From the IMG/VR virus record IMGVR_UViG_3300037285_000086, positions 1 to 26,547 of that record: a stretch of DNA of 26,547 bases, one strand, 5' to 3'. The translations under genes were made by a program, and so were the position numbers. Of the stretch, positions 3,420 to 12,775 are shown in pieces (position 1 is the stretch's first letter; each line of letters begins with the position of its first letter). Under the pieces are notes generated by a model. It did not search any database and was not told the DNA's origin. It saw only the letters and a list, made by a program, of their open reading frames with translations. This DNA comes from a virus.

Positions 3420-3454
3420 CCCGCTATTTCCCCCGCCCGCGCATGTGCTATACT
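3420..3454 (+). promoter_or_regulatory. late promoter copy 1 (major tail protein)
   Basis: CCCGCTATTTCCC (3420-3432), an 11-base GC-rich spacer and TGTGCTATACT (3444-3454). The last part is an extended -10. There is no TTGACA-like -35; the conserved box lies where an activator or alternative factor would touch. The same 35-bp layout is repeated at 5478-5512 before the tape measure gene. Confidence 0.65.
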
Positions 3455-3480
3455 CCCCACAGCAGTTTCTAGGACTGCCC

Positions 3481-3495
3481 TCGTCGTGACGACGA
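3481..3495 (+). promoter_or_regulatory. leader hairpin of major tail protein mRNA
   Basis: TCGTCG/CGACGA forms a perfect 6-bp stem around TGA. It ends 25 bases before the ATG at 3521. A comparable hairpin with a GTGA loop lies 26 bases before the tape measure start (5538-5551). Possible mRNA-stabilising or translation element. Confidence 0.5.
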
Positions 3496-3520
3496 TATTA
3501 TCCAAATCTGGAGCACACGC

Positions 3521-3976
3521 ATGGCTAAAATTACCAGTACTGGCACGATCCTATCTGTAGTAGCAGAAGACCCCGCAACTTTTAACGAATCCGGCTACGA
3601 AGCATTAACCTACGTTGCTGTCGGCGAAGTTATTGACCTGCCCCCATACGGTCCAAACGTCCAAGTCGTCGAATCAAACCCGCTTGCCTCCGGCATTACT
3701 GAAAAGTTCAAAGGCTTTATTAACTTTGGCTCTCAGTCTATTGGCCTGGAATTTGACGCCGCAGACGCTGGTCAGATCATTCTTGCCGCAGGCGTTGAGG
3801 GTGCTACTAAAAACACTCAGCACGCTTTCAAGATCGAATACCAAGACGGCTCAGTTGACTTCTACAGCGCGCGAATTTTCAGCTACACCAAAGCGCCAGG
3901 CAGTGCTAACAGCATGGTCGGATCGACTGTGCAGGTAGAAATCAATACACCCATTACCCGTGTAGCAGCGGCGTAA
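3521..3976 (+). CDS. major tail (tube) protein
   Basis: A 151-residue beta-rich protein of the size and pattern of siphophage tail tube proteins: MAKITSTGTILSV at the start, GEVIDLPPYGPN, a central FKGFINFGSQSIGLEF strand pair, FKIEYQDGSVDFYSARIFSY and a last strand VGSTVQVEINTPITRV. Such proteins stack as hexameric rings to make the tail tube. The start is set by TGGAGCACACGC upstream of the ATG. It has its own late promoter and leader hairpin, as expected for a high-level product, and is followed by the tail-assembly chaperone pair. Family assignment rests on position, size and strand pattern. Confidence 0.85.
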   Translation: MAKITSTGTILSVVAEDPATFNESGYEALTYVAVGEVIDLPPYGPNVQVVESNPLASGITEKFKGFINFGSQSIGLEFDAADAGQIILAAGVEGATKNTQHAFKIEYQDGSVDFYSARIFSYTKAPGSANSMVGSTVQVEINTPITRVAAA

Positions 3977-4041: not shown

Positions 4042-4075
4042 CCTAAATCGGATGCTTATCGCAAGGCATGAGATA

Positions 4076-4507
4076 ATGAAAATTGAAAAAGATATTTCCA
4101 GCAACTTTCTAAATATGTTCGACACTGAATCCGCTTCGGAATCCGGTTCATGGCTCCATTTAGAGCGCCCAGATAAGCGGGGCGCGCTTTGTTATCTTGA
4201 CAAAGAAATGACTGTTCCTTGTAGGATAAAATTAAAGGGTCCTGACTCGGAGGAGTGGGGTTCATTTTCGCGTCAGTCTCAAAAAGACAAAGAAAAAAAG
4301 CTAAAACGCACGGGCAAAGAAGACGCCGTATATGAAGCGAAGCTGTGGTCACGAATGACCATTGAAGTTGAAAACATTCCGGGCTATGAAAGCCCTGATA
4401 GAAATGCTTTGTTTGAAATGTATTTAAAGCACAAAGATATGCGCACCCAAGCTCTTTACTACGTGATTAACCAAGAAAATTTTATTCAAGGGGACGAGAG
4501 CTATTAA
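4076..4507 (+). CDS. tail assembly chaperone, G-like product
   Basis: A 143-residue charged protein read in the zero frame; the ATG at 4076 is preferred to 4052 because it is closer to GAG/AAGG signals and begins MKIEKDISSNFLNMF. In siphophages the gene between tail tube and tape measure encodes the chaperone G and, by -1 frameshifting, the longer GT, which together load the tube protein on the tape measure. Here AAATTTT at 4477-4483 sits 22 bases before the stop, as in that family. Residues in the middle (SRMTIEVENIPGYESPDRNALFEMYL) are followed by the slippery run at codons NF. Confidence 0.75.
   Translation: MKIEKDISSNFLNMFDTESASESGSWLHLERPDKRGALCYLDKEMTVPCRIKLKGPDSEEWGSFSRQSQKDKEKKLKRTGKEDAVYEAKLWSRMTIEVENIPGYESPDRNALFEMYLKHKDMRTQALYYVINQENFIQGDESY
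4477..4483 (+). promoter_or_regulatory. programmed -1 frameshift site AAATTTT
   Basis: In the zero frame this reads A-AAT-TTT, a standard X-XXY-YYZ heptamer. The -1 frame is closed by TAA at 4468-4470 and then open from 4471 to 4953, so the slip falls exactly in the permitted window. After slipping, the product continues Y-S-R-G-R-E-L-L-K-L-W. Confidence 0.75.
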
Positions 4508-4953
4508 AGCTCTGGGCCTCGCAGATAGGTTGGTTACACTCAGTACCACAGCGCCAGCGCAAAGAAGACAAGCGCAACCGCTACGAGCAGTACGGCGAAG
4601 GGCATCCATACACTTGCATTCCTGAAATACGGGGGCTGGAGTACCTGGCAAGTGCGGTTCAGGAGCTAGGGCTAGTTGGTCAGGGCGGTATGTCAATCAG
4701 CCCTACAAGCTGGCAGGAGATAGAGAGCTACATCCGGCTAACCGGGTCGTGGCTCTCTAGCTGGGATGCACAGATGCTGATGGAGATGTCTAGGGCTTAT
4801 GTCAATTGGCGCAACAAGGGCAGCGAGCAAAAAGACATTTCCGATGACGTGCCTTATATTGAGCGCAATGAAGAAACGCTGGCAGCTATGCAGACGCACT
4901 TGATGGACAGCAGAGACAGATCAGCCGATTTGGCGGCGCAAGCAACGAAGTAA
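4483..4953 (+). CDS. T domain of frameshifted tail chaperone GT
   Basis: This 156-codon extension is made by joining 4076-4483 to 4483-4953 (-1 shift), giving a GT protein of about 292 residues. The segment from 4483 to 4690 has no start codon with a ribosome site, yet translates cleanly: YSRGRELLKLWASQIGW, then RYEQYGEGHPYTC, GLEYLASAVQELGLVG. An internal ATG at 4690 (MSISPTSWQEIESYIRLTGS) begins an 87-residue ORF that is only the distal part of this frame. In lambda the T part contacts the tube protein while G contacts the tape measure. The region is followed by a terminator. Confidence 0.75.
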   Translation, partial: YSRGRELLKLWASQIGWLHSVPQRQRKEDKRNRYEQYGEGHPYTCIPEIRGLEYLASAVQELGLVGQGGMSISPTSWQEIESYIRLTGSWLSSWDAQMLMEMSRAYVNWRNKGSEQKDISDDVPYIERNEETLAAMQTHLMDSRDRSADLAAQATK

Positions 4954-4964
4954 TTTTAGTGCGT

Positions 4965-4997
4965 GCAGGGAGGGCTTAGGGCTTTTCCTGCTTTTTT
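4965..4997 (+). terminator. intrinsic terminator after GT chaperone
   Basis: GCAGG (4965-4969) pairs with CCTGC (4987-4991), with extra pairing inside, followed by six T. It ends the tail tube/chaperone unit before the second accessory cassette. Confidence 0.6.
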
Positions 4998-5010
4998 GTT
5001 CCCTAAAGTG

Positions 5011-5038
5011 TTGCACTGTTGCGCCTGTGTGTTATTGT
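5011..5038 (+). promoter_or_regulatory. TTGCAC-N16-TATTGT promoter of second accessory cassette
   Basis: TTGCAC (5011-5016), a 16-base spacer and TATTGT (5033-5038), embedded in CTGTGTGTTATTGTTGA. It has the same design as 2654-2681 and 25076-25103 and lies between a terminator and the 5079 gene. Confidence 0.65.
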
Positions 5039-5078
5039 TGAGTGGTAAAAGGAAATTAACCAAAACGGAGAAAGCGAC

Positions 5079-5384
5079 ATGAATAATTCTGACTTGCTGA
5101 ACTTTATTGAAGACGATGAAATCCTACGAGTTGCAAAAGATGCAGACCTTATAAGTTGGGAGTGGGGAACAGAAAGCAATCTTGAAAAGCTGGCGATGAT
5201 AGAAGGCGCGGCTATAATGCTGAAAGAGCTTTTAAACGATAGCCCTATTTTTTTTACTGGCAAAAAAGGGAAAGAAATTCTTTTATGGAAGATGCTAAAA
5301 GTTGAGGTGCAAGAAAAATCAGACGATTACACGGATCGCCAAACTCTAGTAAGCTTGGGTGAATTTGAGAGAGAAGATGAATAA
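5079..5384 (+). CDS. hypothetical acidic accessory protein
   Basis: A 101-residue, strongly acidic, helical protein (MNNSDLLNFIEDDEILRVAK at the start, LAMIEGAAIMLKELL in the middle, a Glu/Asp-rich tail). No signal peptide or family match that I recognise. It is alone between its own TTGCAC-type promoter and an intrinsic terminator at 5446-5466, so it is an autonomous moron inserted between the chaperone and tape measure genes. It is AT-richer than neighbours. A highly acidic small phage protein could be a DNA mimic or inhibitor, but this is speculation. Confidence 0.65.
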   Translation: MNNSDLLNFIEDDEILRVAKDADLISWEWGTESNLEKLAMIEGAAIMLKELLNDSPIFFTGKKGKEILLWKMLKVEVQEKSDDYTDRQTLVSLGEFEREDE

Positions 5385-5445
5385 TCAAATATAGTTGACA
5401 ATCTATTTTGGCAGCTTTTATTTAAGATTAAAATTATTTTATCGG

Positions 5446-5466
5446 CCCTGTTTTCAGGGTCTTTTT
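5446..5466 (+). terminator. intrinsic terminator of second accessory cassette
   Basis: CCCTG-TTTT-CAGGG is followed by TCTTTTT. It lies directly before late promoter copy 2, the same order as terminator then promoter at 3386-3454. Confidence 0.75.
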
Positions 5467-5477
5467 ACGTCTAGCCT

Positions 5478-5512
5478 CCCGCTATTTCCCATCCCGCGCA
5501 ATGTGCTACAAT
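5478..5512 (+). promoter_or_regulatory. late promoter copy 2 (tape measure)
   Basis: CCCGCTATTTCCC (5478-5490), an 11-base spacer and TGTGCTACAAT (5502-5512). The box is identical to that of 3420-3432 and the spacer length is the same; only the -10 differs (TACAAT against TATACT). The distance from -10 to the downstream start is 65 bases here and 66 there. Confidence 0.65.
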
Positions 5513-5537
5513 TGACCAAGAATTTTACAAGACCACC

Positions 5538-5551
5538 CCGCTGTGAAGCGG
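5538..5551 (+). promoter_or_regulatory. leader hairpin of tape measure mRNA
   Basis: CCGCT/AGCGG with a GTGA tetraloop. It ends 26 bases before the apparent AUC start, matching the geometry of the major tail protein leader (hairpin 3481-3495, 25 bases to the ATG). Confidence 0.5.
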
Positions 5552-5577
5552 CACCGTCCAAACAAGGGAGAATTACC

Positions 5578-8500
5578 ATCGAGGACCTCGCGAGCCTGGG
5601 ATTCAGAATTAATACCGATGGATTGCGCCGCGCTACTGGCGATCTTGACCGCCTAGACCGACAAAGCCGTACCACCACTTCTACAGTGCAGAAACTTGGC
5701 GCTGCCTTTGGTGCGCTTGGTATCGGCGCGGCTCTCCAAGGCTCTTTAAACTCGTTTGCCAACTTCGAGCGAGGTTTGATTGGCGTCGGTAAGACCAGCG
5801 ACATTACCGGCGATGCCTTGACAGGTTTAGGGCAAAGCATCCGTGAATTATCACGCGACCTGCCCGTAACATCGGCTGAACTGCTTGCTATTGCACAAAG
5901 CGCCGGGCAGCTAGGCGTCAGCGGCACGGACAACATTCTTCGCTTTACTGAGACAGTTGGAAAGCTGGGCCTGGCGTCTGACCTGTCTGGCGAACAAGCG
6001 GCCACGTCTTTGGCGCGGATCCTTACAGTTACCGGCACAGCAATCAGCGAAGTGGACCGGCTTGGTTCTACCATCGTTCAGCTTGGCAACAACTTCGCAG
6101 CAACAGAGTCAGAGATTGCGGATGTAGCCACGCGTGTCGCGCAGTCTACTAGCCAGTTCAGGGTTAGTGCTGCCGACGTGCTGGGCATATCCACAGCATT
6201 AAAAGCCGTAGGCGTAGAGGCCGAATCAGGCGGCACACAGATTGGACTTTCATTCCAGGCTATCAACGACGCGTTAAGAAATGGCGGCGAAGAACTAAAC
6301 CGCCTCCAAGAAATTACCGGGCGTACCGGAGATGCTTTGCGCCAAGACTTTTTCAACGGCGAATCAGCTAAAGTTTTTGAAGATTTTGTAAAGGGACTGG
6401 GCAACATACAAGCATCTGGCGGGGACGTTTCAGCAGCCTTGAACTCGCTAGGGTTGAACGGCAGTCAGGCAGTGCAGGTTCTTAGCACACTGGCCACACG
6501 CACGGACGTGCTCTCAGATGCCCTGTCTCAGGCTAACACCGAATATGAAGCAAACGTGGCGCTTAACAAAGAGGCGGCTGTAGCTAGCACCTCGTTCAGC
6601 GCACAGCTACAATTAGTGGGCAATGCCGCAGACGAAGCCGCAAGCGCCATTGGCTCTATTATTGCCCCCGCTGCCCTTGAGGGGCTAAGTACCTTTAGGG
6701 ATGCATCTCTGGCGGTTGCTGAAAACATAGATGAAGTAGCAGATGCTGCTGCCGCCGTTGCCATTTTAATTGGTGGTAAGCTTGCCGGTGCACTGGCAAT
6801 AGGCGCAGCGGCTTTTGTGACAAACACCAAAGCATCTCTTTTGAGCTTTGCTGCAACGACTAGGGCAGCTAATACTCAGGCTATTCTGGCGCAAGGGCTA
6901 ATAAGGCGCACTGCCTCAGAAAAGCTTGCAGTCTTCGCCACGTTAGACAGAGCAAGGGCCGAGGTTGCAGCGACGGCAGGGACACAGGCAAATGCCGCTG
7001 CACTTGTCAGACAAACGGCAGCGGTAGACGCCGCAACGATTGCAGCCGCAAGGCATACCGTAGCACTCAGCGCAAACACCGTCGTAATGGGGGCCGGTGC
7101 GGTTGCGGCAGGCGTACTGACAAGGGCGATGGCCCTGCTAGGAGGGCCAGTCGGTGTTCTTATAATTGCAGCAGCATCGCTTTACTATTTCCGGGACGCG
7201 ATATTCAGCACAAAAGTAGAGCTAGGCGAGGCGGGTGAAGCGGTTCGTGGGTTTACCGACGGGCTGCAAGACATGACATCCGCAACGGTAGAAAGCAACC
7301 GCCAGTCACTTGCTCAGCAGATGCGAGAAAACACCATTGCTATTGCCGAAGCTGGGGCAGAGCTTGACCGGTTGCAAGAAAAGCAAAAATCACAGAACGT
7401 TTCTAACCAAGGCAGGCCGGGTGCTGCCACTGCGCAAATGCGTGAAGCACAGCAGGAAGTCGCAGTCCTTACCAAGCTTGGCGTCGTCATGGGCGAGCAG
7501 TTTGAAAAGCTAAACGAACGCGCCAATCAACTTGCCACAACCGCTGCCGAAAGCTCAGCAAGTGCCGCAGATTCAATAGCCGCTACAGCCGAAGCAGCCG
7601 CAAGTGCTGCCGAAAAAGTTACCGCTGCCCTAATTGTAGAGCTTGAGTATTTGAGATTGCAGAATGGTTTGGTGGAGGCTGGCATATCAGCGTCTAAAAT
7701 TGAAATCGCAATCATGGAAACCAAGCGCGAGTTGATGCTCGAAGCGCAAGGGCTGACCGCGGCTCAGGCTGTAGAGTATGTGGCGCTGGAAAAAGCAATA
7801 GCCTTGTCTCTCAGTGCCCAGCGCGAAGAAGACCAGATGCTGCAAAATCTGCGGGATCAGTACGGCGATACAACCAAAGCCGCAAGAGACTTCACGGCAC
7901 AAGTTAAATTGCTCTCGGACCTGCTATTAGCAACGGGCGATCCAGAAATTGCACGCATATTAAAGCGCCTGGCTGATGACTTTAACGACGCGGGGAAGAA
8001 AGCAGCCGAGGAATTTAAAAACCCCTTTGAATCCGCGGCTCAGAGTGTGTCCCAATCACTGCAAGACGCCATTGCATCGGGTGACTTTGGAAGCCTTGGA
8101 GAGGGCGTGGGCAATGCTTTCGCGGCATCGTTTAGTGCGGTAGTGAGCAAAAGCATAACCGATACGCTGTCTGAAGGTTTAACAAAAGACAGCTCAGCAA
8201 TATCACAAATCAGCGCAGCTTTTGCCGGGCCTATCGCGGGCGCTGTTGTGGGCGGCGTTGTTCAGCTTGCCGTTGCCGAGCTGGCCGACTTCTTTAGCTT
8301 CGGAGACTTTGACCCAACGGCAGACCGACAAGCAGCGCAAGGCACCGGCACAATACTTGGATCAATAGATGCAAAGTCTGACAGCATAGCAAAAGCCACA
8401 GAGCTGACAGCCAGCACGAACGAGGAGCTGGTCAACATCAACACCGGGATGCTCAGGGCGCTACAAAGCGTACAGGAAGGTATTGCGGGTGCGGCGGCAA

Positions 8501-10560
8501 GGGTGGCGCGGGGCGCTGGGGCTCAACAGTTTAACGCGCCATCGGTTAGCTCTGGTCAATTTGAGGGACTTATCGCTGGCGGCGCTTTGGGGGCTATTGG
8601 CGGAGCCACCCTTGGGCTAGCACTTGGCGCAACCGCAGGAGCAACAGGCGCTTTGGCCGTTGCCGCCGTCCTTGGGCCAGCGGGTTTAATTGTTGGTGCG
8701 CTACTAGGGCCGACACTTGGCAAACTTTTTGGCGGCAAATCAAAGCAAGTAGACGAAGGCATCCGAATCACAGGCGGCGCAATCCAAGACCTGATAGAGA
8801 ACACGGTTGTAGAAGGATTTGCAACTTTCAGGGTTAAGAAAAACATTGTTAGCAGCACGAAAACCAAGGAGAAATTCCAGTCTCTAGGCGATGACGTAAG
8901 CAACCAGTTTGCTCTCGTTTTTGAATCGCTTGTTGACTCAGTGTCAGAAGGTGCGGCAGCAATAGGCTTACTGCCTGCCGATGTCCAGTCAGCACTAGAT
9001 CAGTTTAGGGTTGAGACTCAAAAGATAAGCTTAGAAAACCTTAACGCAGGCGAACAAACCGATGCAATCCAAGAAGTCTTCGGCGTTATCTTTGACAACT
9101 TGGCGTCGGCAGTCGTGCCATTCCTTGATGACTTCCAGCGGGCCGGTGAAGGCTTAGGCGAGACTCTTGCAAGAGTTGCTACTCAAGTACAGCTAACAGC
9201 AGAGGCGGCAACTACTCTCGGCTTTGCGCTAGATAATGCCCTTGGCGCGGAGATGGTGGCCGGTATATCGGATTCGCTCGTTAAACTAGTTGGCGGAATT
9301 GAGGCATTCTCAACTGCGATCACGTCTTTCGAGTCAAATTTCTTCACGGAGGCGGAACAGTTCGACATCAACGCCCGCCGGTTAACTCAGGCAATGGGCG
9401 ATTTGCCGCTGGCAGAAACGCGCCAAGGCTTTGTTGACTTGCTGCAAGCGCAGGACGTGACCACAATTAGCGGGCGCGAGGCGGTGGCTACGCTGCTTAG
9501 GTTGCAGGGTTCGGCGGATGATTACTATTCATACCTAGAAGACGCTTCAGAAGCAGCGGCACAATTAGCGCTAGATGCACTCAACGGCATCCGGGGTGCA
9601 ACCGATAGCGCCCTTGGCGACTTGCAGAGATTGGTTAACGACCGCAAGAGCGTACTGCAAGAGGGCTATAACGCTGAAGTTGCCTTGATTCAAGAGCAGA
9701 CCAGCGCAAGGCTTGAAGCTAATCAGCTTGTGCTAGATGCCGCAAAAGCCGGAATGCAAGCCATACAGCAAGAGTTGACTGGCATAACGTCGGCGTCTAA
9801 CCGGTTGCGTGGCAACTTTGAACCGGCACAGGCAGGGCTGAGGTCTAACGCTCTGGCCACTCTGAGCGCGGCAATTGCAAGCGGTGACCTTACAGGCACA
9901 GACCAAGCCGCAGGCGTTGCAATCGACATCAACGCGGGCGCTTACACCAACTCTGCGGAGTATCGGGCAGAGCAGGCCCGCACACTGTTTACGCTTTCAC
10001 TGCTACAGAGCGAAGGCCAATCACAGCTAACGGTTGCTGAGCAGTCTGTACAGCGACTGGAAGAGCATACAACCGCAATCCGTGAAGAGTCAGAACGTCA
10101 AATATTAAACGCTGAGCAGGCTTTGAACGCGCAGCTAATGGCGCTTGATGCGCTTTATACCGAGCAGCTGAATCAAGTTAACGAGCTGCGCGGAATCCGC
10201 GCGGGCGTCCTTGGAGTTGAGGAAGCAATCGCGGCCCTGGCAAGCGCAATACAAGCTGAATCAGGACTAACAGTTAGCACAGTGCCCGGTTTCGCCAGCG
10301 GCGGAATGCACTCAGGTGGCTTGCGGATTGTAGGCGAGCGTGGCCCTGAACTTGAGGCTACCGGCTCCAGTAAGATCATGAGCAATTCCGAATTGATGTC
10401 ATCCCTTGGCGGCAATCAAAAATTGGCAGATGAGATGCGGGCCATGCATTCTGATATGATGCTGGGGTTAAATACTATGGCCAAGACATCTAATAAGATA
10501 AGTCGGCAGCTTGAGCGATGGGATCTTACCGGCCTGCCAGCGACGAGGGAGTTTGTATGA
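5578..10560 (+). CDS. tail tape measure protein, apparent AUC start
   Basis: A protein of about 1660 residues that sets tail length. Residues about 60-290 form a TP901-type tape measure core (FERGLIGVGKTSDITG, ELLAIAQSAGQLGVSG, FRVSAADVLGISTALKAVGV). Alanine-rich coiled-coil stretches and several hydrophobic segments follow (near 7085-7185 and 8560-8730), typical of tape measures that also form channels. The C-terminus has FASGGMHSGGLRIVGERGPE, common in this family. The frame has no ATG near its 5' end: AAGGGAG (5564-5570) stands 7 bases before ATC at 5578, giving EDLASLGFRINTDGL after the initiator. GTG 5503 and TTG 5512 are in frame but lie in the promoter. The TGA overlaps the next ATG. 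Confidence 0.9.
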   Translation: MEDLASLGFRINTDGLRRATGDLDRLDRQSRTTTSTVQKLGAAFGALGIGAALQGSLNSFANFERGLIGVGKTSDITGDALTGLGQSIRELSRDLPVTSAELLAIAQSAGQLGVSGTDNILRFTETVGKLGLASDLSGEQAATSLARILTVTGTAISEVDRLGSTIVQLGNNFAATESEIADVATRVAQSTSQFRVSAADVLGISTALKAVGVEAESGGTQIGLSFQAINDALRNGGEELNRLQEITGRTGDALRQDFFNGESAKVFEDFVKGLGNIQASGGDVSAALNSLGLNGSQAVQVLSTLATRTDVLSDALSQANTEYEANVALNKEAAVASTSFSAQLQLVGNAADEAASAIGSIIAPAALEGLSTFRDASLAVAENIDEVADAAAAVAILIGGKLAGALAIGAAAFVTNTKASLLSFAATTRAANTQAILAQGLIRRTASEKLAVFATLDRARAEVAATAGTQANAAALVRQTAAVDAATIAAARHTVALSANTVVMGAGAVAAGVLTRAMALLGGPVGVLIIAAASLYYFRDAIFSTKVELGEAGEAVRGFTDGLQDMTSATVESNRQSLAQQMRENTIAIAEAGAELDRLQEKQKSQNVSNQGRPGAATAQMREAQQEVAVLTKLGVVMGEQFEKLNERANQLATTAAESSASAADSIAATAEAAASAAEKVTAALIVELEYLRLQNGLVEAGISASKIEIAIMETKRELMLEAQGLTAAQAVEYVALEKAIALSLSAQREEDQMLQNLRDQYGDTTKAARDFTAQVKLLSDLLLATGDPEIARILKRLADDFNDAGKKAAEEFKNPFESAAQSVSQSLQDAIASGDFGSLGEGVGNAFAASFSAVVSKSITDTLSEGLTKDSSAISQISAAFAGPIAGAVVGGVVQLAVAELADFFSFGDFDPTADRQAAQGTGTILGSIDAKSDSIAKATELTASTNEELVNINTGMLRALQSVQEGIAGAAARVARGAGAQQFNAPSVSSGQFEGLIAGGALGAIGGATLGLALGATAGATGALAVAAVLGPAGLIVGALLGPTLGKLFGGKSKQVDEGIRITGGAIQDLIENTVVEGFATFRVKKNIVSSTKTKEKFQSLGDDVSNQFALVFESLVDSVSEGAAAIGLLPADVQSALDQFRVETQKISLENLNAGEQTDAIQEVFGVIFDNLASAVVPFLDDFQRAGEGLGETLARVATQVQLTAEAATTLGFALDNALGAEMVAGISDSLVKLVGGIEAFSTAITSFESNFFTEAEQFDINARRLTQAMGDLPLAETRQGFVDLLQAQDVTTISGREAVATLLRLQGSADDYYSYLEDASEAAAQLALDALNGIRGATDSALGDLQRLVNDRKSVLQEGYNAEVALIQEQTSARLEANQLVLDAAKAGMQAIQQELTGITSASNRLRGNFEPAQAGLRSNALATLSAAIASGDLTGTDQAAGVAIDINAGAYTNSAEYRAEQARTLFTLSLLQSEGQSQLTVAEQSVQRLEEHTTAIREESERQILNAEQALNAQLMALDALYTEQLNQVNELRGIRAGVLGVEEAIAALASAIQAESGLTVSTVPGFASGGMHSGGLRIVGERGPELEATGSSKIMSNSELMSSLGGNQKLADEMRAMHSDMMLGLNTMAKTSNKISRQLERWDLTGLPATREFV

Positions 10561-11450
10561 GAGTCGTAACGCCGTTTAACGTAGACACTGGGCAGCTTAC
10601 AACAACCAATGTTGTCAACGAGTTTGCCGATTGGTCTGCGGGCACGTTTGACATTGGTGATCAGGTAGTCGAAGCGAACAACGTCTACAAAGTCGTTGCA
10701 GACCCCGACACCACCGACCAGCCAACCATAGGCGCTGCCGCCAGCCCGGCAACCTGGGTGCTGATGGGGCCGTCTAATCAATACCGCATGTTTCGCGATG
10801 GCCGTGACAGCTATTCAAGCCGCGATGAATCCATTGATGTCACGCTGAACTTTGCGCAGGTAGTCACAACGGTTGCTGCACTGGGATTACAAGGAACGTC
10901 TGCAACCCTGACAGTCGTGGACTCGGTTGAGGGCACAGTATACGACGAAACAATATCACTCGTTGACATTGGTGTGAGCAACCTGTGGGAATATTTTTTC
11001 TTGCCTTACGACTTTAACGACACGGCAATATTCGACGGAATCCCGCCGTATCAAGGGGCAGACATAAATCTAAGCATTAACGCTGCAACCGCTGCCGATG
11101 AAGCAAGGGCTGGCCGGGTTCTTGTTGGAATTGAGAGATCACTTGGCGTTACAAACTACGGCGTTAGCGTATCTATACTGGACTACAGCACAAAAGAGCG
11201 TGACGGCTTTGGTAATTTAACCCTAGTACCACGGCGAACTGTCAGACTGGTTGATTATGATGTTAAAGTAAACACCGATAAAGTCGATTTTGTTGTTCGA
11301 TTTCTTGAAAGAATATCATCAACCCCTACGCTGTTTATTGGCGATTCTTCATTCTCTAGCTCGGTCACATTTGGAATTTATAGAGACTTTTCACAGGGCA
11401 TAACATCGCCCTCAATTTCTGACTTAGCTATTCAAGTCGAGGGCTTTTGA
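10557..11450 (+). CDS. distal tail (baseplate-like) protein
   Basis: A 297-residue protein started at the ATG overlapping the tape measure stop (ATGA). Residues about 25-50 (WSAGTFDIGDQVVEANNVYK) resemble a short carbohydrate-binding-like fold (W..GT...GD.V...N.VY) seen in chitin-binding type 3 modules and phage tail proteins. The rest is beta-rich: YRMFRDGRDSYSSRDESIDV, WEYFFLPYDF, IPPYQGADINLSINAAT, NYGVSVSILDYSTKERDGFG. Position right after the tape measure suggests a distal tail or hub protein that binds the tube end and perhaps receptor glycans. It is the only gene between tape measure and fibre. No firm family name. Confidence 0.65.
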   Translation: MRVVTPFNVDTGQLTTTNVVNEFADWSAGTFDIGDQVVEANNVYKVVADPDTTDQPTIGAAASPATWVLMGPSNQYRMFRDGRDSYSSRDESIDVTLNFAQVVTTVAALGLQGTSATLTVVDSVEGTVYDETISLVDIGVSNLWEYFFLPYDFNDTAIFDGIPPYQGADINLSINAATAADEARAGRVLVGIERSLGVTNYGVSVSILDYSTKERDGFGNLTLVPRRTVRLVDYDVKVNTDKVDFVVRFLERISSTPTLFIGDSSFSSSVTFGIYRDFSQGITSPSISDLAIQVEGF

Positions 11451-11452
11451 TT

Positions 11453-12775
11453 ATGGCCATACCTGAAAAACCTACTCTTACCACGCCCCCGGCTGCACCA
11501 ATTAGGGGTCAAGATCCGACTGTCTTTGCAGATAGAGCTAATGCTTATCTTCAGTTTATAACCAGTAATGTCTCGGATCTTACTGAGGCGATTGATTGGC
11601 AAAATACGGTGTTTACGGCGGTTGATCAAGCAATGACGCGCTCAGAAAGTGCCGCCATTATTGCCGCAGGATCTGCAAATTATCAAGGGCAATGGTCTGA
11701 CGCGTCGGGGCCTGCAACTGCGGGGGGGAGCTACGAAAACTTGAGCACCCTTTGGCTGCTATTGTCTGACGTTAGTAATATAGCTGCAAATGAGCCTGTG
11801 GAAGGATCATTGTGGACTGAGCTATCAATTTACACAGCTAATGTGATCGACAATCTTCTTGACGATAAAGCAAATCAAGCTACAACTTACACTAAAACAG
11901 AGGCTGACAATCTTCTTGACGATAAAGCAAACCAAAGTACAACTTACACAAAAACAGAGGCTGACAATCTTCTTAACGCCAAAGCAAACCAAGCCACAAC
12001 TTACACTAAAACAGAGGCTGACAATCTTCTTGACGATAAAGCAAACCAAAGTACAACTTACACAAAAACAGAGGCTGACAATCTTCTTAACGCCAAAGCA
12101 AACCAAGCCACAACCTACACTAAAACAGAATCAGTTGCACAATTTAATCAGTTTGGCGTAGGGGCGGCTGGGACAGCACTGACAAACGCTGAAAGCGCAG
12201 TTCTCGGGTCTAACAACTCAATAAGATTTGAGAGTAACGCGGCAGCGGTAGCTGCAAACTACCCGAATTTGGGCGCAGGCACCGGGCCGGTACATTGGAA
12301 TTTAATGACTTACGGGGAAAGTGGTAGGATTACGCAACTAGCTACTGAGGTATTCGGACAGTACACAGGAGGTAAAGGCTTTACGTTTATCAGAGTAAAG
12401 CACGACACATGGCAACCGTGGGTTAAAAACTTTACTGAGGTAGGTGGTGCGTTTATAGGCTCAATAAGCGCAACAAACCTAAGCGGAACAAACACGGGTG
12501 ATCAGACCAACATCTCCGGCAATGCTGGCACAGTATCAAACATAACCACAGCACAGGTGGGATCAGCTACTGCGGGGCTGGCGCTGGAGGCGGTTGGGAG
12601 TTATGTGATGGCCAAAAATTTTGGCGGCGGTAAACAACCCGGCAGTACTGTCTCCGGTTCATCTTTAGCGTATGCCGCTGCTGATGGAGGATCTACCGGA
12701 ACGCTCTCTGGAACTTGGCGACTGATGGGCACCGCCGCTTTTGGTGATGTAAGTACATTTCTAAGGATCTCATAA
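11453..12775 (+). CDS. tail fibre protein with TYTKTEA repeats
   Basis: A 440-residue protein; the ATG at 11453 is preferred over TTG at 11447 because GAGGG (11439-11443) is correctly spaced. The N-terminal third (IPEKPTLTTPPAAPIRGQDP...FADRANAYLQFI) is of the kind that anchors fibres, followed by NYQGQWSD. Residues about 133-227 are five copies of a 19-residue unit (DNLLDDKANQATTYTKTEA), as found in trimeric tail fibres. A receptor-binding-like region (YPNLGAGTGPVHWNLMTYG) and a glycine/serine-rich tail (GSTGTLSGTWRLMG) follow. It probably forms a trimeric fibre that recognises the host surface. Confidence 0.85.
   Translation: MAIPEKPTLTTPPAAPIRGQDPTVFADRANAYLQFITSNVSDLTEAIDWQNTVFTAVDQAMTRSESAAIIAAGSANYQGQWSDASGPATAGGSYENLSTLWLLLSDVSNIAANEPVEGSLWTELSIYTANVIDNLLDDKANQATTYTKTEADNLLDDKANQSTTYTKTEADNLLNAKANQATTYTKTEADNLLDDKANQSTTYTKTEADNLLNAKANQATTYTKTESVAQFNQFGVGAAGTALTNAESAVLGSNNSIRFESNAAAVAANYPNLGAGTGPVHWNLMTYGESGRITQLATEVFGQYTGGKGFTFIRVKHDTWQPWVKNFTEVGGAFIGSISATNLSGTNTGDQTNISGNAGTVSNITTAQVGSATAGLALEAVGSYVMAKNFGGGKQPGSTVSGSSLAYAAADGGSTGTLSGTWRLMGTAAFGDVSTFLRIS
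11849..12133 (+). repeat. five tandem 57-bp repeats in tail fibre gene
   Basis: Copies begin at 11849, 11906, 11963, 12020 and 12077 (the last diverges at its end). Units 2 and 4 share AACCAAAGTACAACTTAC; units 3 and 5 share CTTAACGCCAAAGCAAACC. So units 2-3 and 4-5 form a duplicated 114-bp block. In-frame length change is possible by slippage or recombination. Confidence 0.9.

Follow-up and report, generated by a model that had tools for sequence, protein, structure and literature searches.

A phage tape measure gene probably translated from a conserved AUC codon, with AUG alleles in close relatives

The window, meaning the whole stretch of DNA analysed here, is a 26,547-base IMG/VR virus record and belongs to a group of uncultured phages. 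It carries tail genes in an order that shows synteny in relatives: the tail tube gene from 3521, a tail assembly chaperone frame at 4471-4953, and the gene for the tape measure, the protein that sets tail length, from 5578. All features of this region lie on the plus strand. The tube protein gene (3521-3976; PF16461, E=4e-6; phrog_158) has a normal ATG, while the chaperone frame matches phrog_18915, with PF23812 falling below the cut-off. The latter lies in the -1 frame relative to another chaperone-like frame (4052-4507), and the two overlap at 4471-4507. A slippery-looking A AAT TTT is present in this overlap (4477-4483), making a programmed -1 frameshift likely, as in lambda G/GT. A simple pattern search for a slippery site in the chaperone of relatives found none. 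The tape measure gene itself (5578-10560, 1660 residues) matches Pfam PF10145 (E=1.3e-18) and many PHROG tape measure families. Further along, a gene with a weak tail fibre match (11447-12775) contains a tandem repeat with units of about 57 nt (11826-12123).

The interval between chaperone and tape measure (4954-5563) is a variable insertion site, occupied by differing inserts or by nothing in phages whose tail genes are otherwise about 77-79% identical. One such insert (L083/L085) has an apparent opposite-strand gene. In the window, the interval includes a small gene (5079-5384) that has no family match and was not aligned in relatives. It is followed by a promoter-like block, CGCTATTTCC...TGTGCTACAAT (5480-5512, with the -10 element at 5507-5512), recognised by consensus match only. 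This is the second of two copies in the window; the first begins at 3422 in the tube gene leader (3422-3520), which has its -10 at 3449 and a hairpin at 3482-3494 before the ATG at 3521. Both leaders open with CGCTATTTCC...CGCGCA(A)TGTGCTA(T/C)A(C/A)T, a resemblance that suggests one promoter cassette present twice. The tape measure leader also contains a hairpin, CCGC-TGTGAA-GCGG (5538-5551), which is kept in the leaders of L105, L001/L117, L004/L107 and L007. The first-pass annotation had described a near-identical geometry for the two leaders. Its distances from the -10 to the start codon (65 bases, and 66 for the tube gene) stand, whereas the hairpin-to-start distance is 26 in both leaders rather than 26 and 25.

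The tape measure frame runs from stop to stop over 5395-10560. From the ATC at 5578-5580 (base 5580 is C), 1660 codons extend to 10560. This ATC had been proposed as the start codon on the grounds that AAGGGAG (5564-5570) lies 7 nt before it and that no in-frame ATG, GTG or TTG has a ribosome site, and both observations were borne out. Pairing of AAGGGAG with the anti-Shine-Dalgarno gives a duplex of -8.4 kcal/mol, whereas the nearby canonical codons, namely TTG 5395, GTG 5503 and TTG 5512 upstream and TTG 5623 and GTG 5686 downstream, have values of +0.2 to +1.9 kcal/mol and thus no Shine-Dalgarno. The three upstream codons, in the open stretch 5' of the ATC (5395-5577), are missing in the other AUC haplotypes, and GTG 5503 and TTG 5512 lie within or adjoin the -10 element. 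An ordinary start with a Shine-Dalgarno is available for most other genes of the window. On both strands of the window, only 3 of 791 ATC triplets are preceded by a Shine-Dalgarno this strong. Given this rarity, and the recurrence of the site in eight other contigs, the pairing at 5578 is more than chance. tRNA genes were sought in the window and none was found, and a phage-encoded initiator tRNA was rejected on that basis.

A protein scan of IMG/VR yielded 80 loci, and the set with ATC was completed by exact and degenerate DNA scans and by a scan with the 25-residue N-terminal module. Eight further contigs, from eight different metagenome numbers, have ATC at the exact position: L082, L083, L084, L085, L086, L087, L105 and L135 (L015, L013, L014 and L307 are duplicate labels for L082, L084, L087 and L135, respectively). 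With the window, they make nine records, five haplotypes and three upstream arrangements, among which the ATC is invariant. When ATT, ATC or ATA was permitted before EDLASLGF, all eight matches were ATC. A generic scan for GGAGAATTACCATC returned mostly chance sites. The retention of this non-NTG codon across relatives strongly supports the proposal of AUC as the start.

The three arrangements place very different sequences 5' of the ATC. In the first (the window and L105), it is preceded by the promoter-like leader with its hairpin. In the second, comprising two haplotypes (L082-type, that is L082/L084/L087, and L135), a chaperone homologue lies directly 5' of the site and ends at an in-frame TAA, followed by four codons and then the ATC (TAA AGG AGA ATT ACC ATC in L082-type; TAA AGG AGA ACT ATC ATC in L135). 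In the third (L083, L085 and L086), the ATC follows a stretch inserted between chaperone and tape measure, of about 770 nt in L083 and L085. Frameshifting or read-through from the chaperone was rejected, as the other arrangements lack the in-frame TAA seen in L082-type and L135. In four of the five haplotypes (L082-type, L083-type, L105 and L135), no ATG, GTG or TTG occurs from the in-frame stop to the ATC. The first one downstream is at codon 44 in L082-type, codon 26 in L083-type and L135, and codon 16 in the window and L105, so none is common to all haplotypes; in L082-type and L135, it falls beyond the conserved N-terminus. This AUC persists although the relatives have diverged and the adjoining genes differ, which makes a genuine start signal very probable and a sequencing error very improbable. 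The AUC haplotypes have a short block at the start in common; a single ancestral change, passed on by recombination, may therefore underlie them, making for fewer than nine independent events.

Among isolate phages, a blastn search with the region found no match in the collection, and protein matches were below 60% identity and in no record spanned 80% of the query; consequently, no isolate phage tests this start. A search of genome contigs returned distant relatives only.

Codon comparison of six AUC rows, representing the five haplotypes, indicates where coding begins. Codon 1 is ATC in all six. Across codons 2-11 (EDLASLGFRI, 5581-5610), there are no amino-acid changes, and nine of the ten codons vary synonymously (for example, Ser AGC/AGT/TCG, Leu CTG/CTC/TTA and Ile ATT/ATA/ATC). 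Immediately upstream, the encoded amino acid varies at both codon -1 (ACC/ATC) and codon -2 (ATT/ACT). The absence of constraint at these two positions, together with amino-acid constraint from codon 2 onwards, places the coding boundary at the ATC.

This pattern also bears on two other candidate starts. The in-frame ATT two codons upstream (5572), present in four of the five AUC haplotypes, would give fMet-Thr-Ile-Glu-Asp, and E. coli has proven natural AUU starts, those of infC and pcnB (PMC9410913). Initiation there is nonetheless very unlikely: the AUU is only 1 nt past GGAG, which is far too close, its homologue is ACT in L135, ruling it out as a shared start, the amino acids at codons -2 and -1 change, and in AUG relatives the start corresponds to the ATC and not to the AUU. 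A start at a downstream canonical codon (TTG 5623 in the window), producing a protein that lacks the first 15 residues, is likewise hard to credit. The window and L105 both have TTG as codon 16, but the other AUC haplotypes have CTT there, the window's TTG has no Shine-Dalgarno (+0.2 kcal/mol), and the amino acids of codons 2-11, which this start would omit, are conserved while their codons vary synonymously. We consider it highly likely that translation of the tape measure gene begins with the AUC at 5578.

The start codon of close relatives had been set as a check on this assignment, with ATG there counting against it. Some relatives do have ATG at the homologous position (L001/L117, L002/L114 and L004/L107), while many others, carrying diverged alleles, have ATC. 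L001, L002 and L004 read ATG GAA GAC CTC where the window reads ATC GAG GAC CTC, and ATC is present in L013-L015. The spacing from GGAG to the start is 7 nt with both codons (for ATG, in L001/L117 and L002/L114, for example). Such ATG relatives are the evidence favouring the view that base 5580 is truly G, the C being an error of sequencing or assembly or the mark of a dead allele. Against this, eight further contigs, all from other metagenomes, share the ATC although their neighbouring genes are up to about 23% diverged, and the frame beyond it remains intact and shows purifying selection. An error or dead allele is thus exceedingly improbable, and a sequencing error at 5580 is excluded for practical purposes. 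Since the ATC alleles have diverged yet keep ATC, the ATG relatives point instead to allelic exchange.

Evidence for exchange comes from a tree of the tube-to-chaperone region, from which the start site itself was excluded. The most parsimonious number of changes between AUC and AUG on this tree is five, and its starred branches force at least three. L085 (AUC) and L117 (AUG) are nearly identical from tube to chaperone, with end branches of 0.0007 and 0.0014, and their tape measure bodies differ. Further, each of three bodies occurs with both starts: body A in the window (AUC) and L117/L114 (AUG), body A' in L082 (AUC) and L125-L127 (AUG), and body B in L105 (AUC) and in L115, L122 and L136-L141 (AUG). 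Similar bodies with both starts imply that the start and N-terminal module are swapped together by recombination. Either start, AUC or AUG, seems to function in phage backgrounds that are much alike, and the phages that carry them presumably have the same hosts. The 25-residue module EDLASLGFRIDSSGLRRA (5578-5652 in the window) is conserved in L082, L083, L085, L105, L111 and L115. The tape measure bodies attached to it are of several kinds, which suggests that modules at this N-terminus are often exchanged.

Shine-Dalgarno strength differs somewhat between the two alleles. AUC haplotypes range from -7.4 to -8.7 kcal/mol and AUG relatives mostly from -5.6 to -7.8 kcal/mol, although three of the latter (L129, L131 and L149) have Shine-Dalgarnos as strong as those of AUC haplotypes or stronger. 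One-sided Mann-Whitney comparison of AUC with AUG gave p values of 0.050 for all relatives and 0.045 for nearer relatives, a hint that a stronger Shine-Dalgarno compensates for AUC.

We infer from these sequence patterns that initiation actually takes place at AUC, that fMet is the first residue, and that output may be affected. The Shine-Dalgarno, about as strong as AAGGAG and 7 nt upstream, would set AUC in the ribosomal P site, where initiator fMet-tRNA would start despite the third-base mismatch, giving a protein that begins fMet-Glu-Asp-Leu-Ala. Few copies of the tape measure protein are needed per virion. Efficiency at AUC is probably reduced, and partly offset by the stronger Shine-Dalgarno, and such a reduction would suit a protein required in these numbers. 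It is plausible that AUC keeps tape measure output low; near-identical phages with almost identical tail genes use AUG. In keeping with Shine-Dalgarno-directed initiation on such a codon, AUC with a Shine-Dalgarno in mycobacteria supports low, above-background and Shine-Dalgarno-dependent initiation (PMC4633059); AUC served there as a presumed negative control and was a weak initiator. As IF3 disfavours weak third-base pairs (PMC10158994), output from AUC should respond to IF3 fidelity. The AUC site is one allele of the tape measure module, recombining with AUG alleles among closely related phages.

The C of AUC might also be kept for another reason, for instance as part of a start-site hairpin (CGAG-GAY-CUCG) or of a DNA block used in recombination, with this element tuning initiation. 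Four of the five AUC haplotypes form the hairpin (-2.0 kcal/mol), the three AUG relatives that were folded do not, codon 4 is CTC in all AUC haplotypes, and tape measure bodies are exchanged downstream of the start block. Yet the hairpin is very weak, its closing pair is broken in L105 (-0.1 kcal/mol), and the haplotypes are few; in any case, AUC still has to specify the first residue. We regard this explanation as improbable. Returning to selection on the codon itself, it is possible, though rather unlikely, that the phage lineage keeps AUC, and specifically AUC and not AUU or AUA, under selection, with output set by IF3 fidelity or by a start-site mRNA hairpin, and the module traded against AUG by recombination.

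Several known systems share features with this site. The AUU starts of infC (encoding IF3) and pcnB in E. coli are likewise near-cognate AUN codons that have a third-base mismatch with the initiator anticodon, are conserved, and are expected to be inefficient. Here, in contrast, the codon is AUC, the gene encodes a phage structural protein, and close relatives have AUG alleles; unlike infC, there is no sign of IF3 autoregulation. In Staphylococcus aureus, cvfC1, ccpN and infC have conserved AUU and AUA starts with extended Shine-Dalgarnos (PMC13009471), and resemble the phage site in that a strong or extended Shine-Dalgarno directs a conserved non-canonical start. The present case differs in using AUC, in being from a phage, and in having a Shine-Dalgarno of only 5-6 nt that is not extended. 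Among tape measure genes, SPP1 gene 18 starts from AGGAGG-9-AUG (PMC6316719). Genes of this type and that of the window follow the tail chaperones and have a Shine-Dalgarno-driven start, but the window has AUC in place of AUG, together with its own promoter-like leader and hairpin.

Two other candidates were noted. One is a major head protein gene (phrog_212, E=1.3e-60) on the minus strand of L167, a contig also labelled L267, which has GGAG-7 nt-ATC at 10592. Most homologues place ATG, GTG or TTG where this ATC sits, and the gene lacks a canonical start ahead of codon 31. It may be a second AUC-started phage gene, although it comes from a single contig and a base error is possible. In L254, the ORF INVITDTTPYIGTLHNVSTG on the plus strand has AAGGGAG-7 nt-ATC at 1188. 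An in-frame stop lies a short way upstream, codon 29 is not preceded by any canonical start, and the phage collection yielded no relatives of it. A literature search for AUC or ATC starts in phages found no natural published case in the papers covered, weakly suggesting that a natural AUC start in a phage gene is new to the literature.

AUC is almost never used as a start codon, and gene finders normally permit ATG, GTG and TTG only. A gene finder with this restriction would mis-start or truncate a 1660-residue structural protein here. A conserved AUC with interchangeable AUG alleles in near-identical phages suggests that more AUN-started phage genes have been overlooked, and would represent a natural experiment in how start-codon choice bears on tail assembly.
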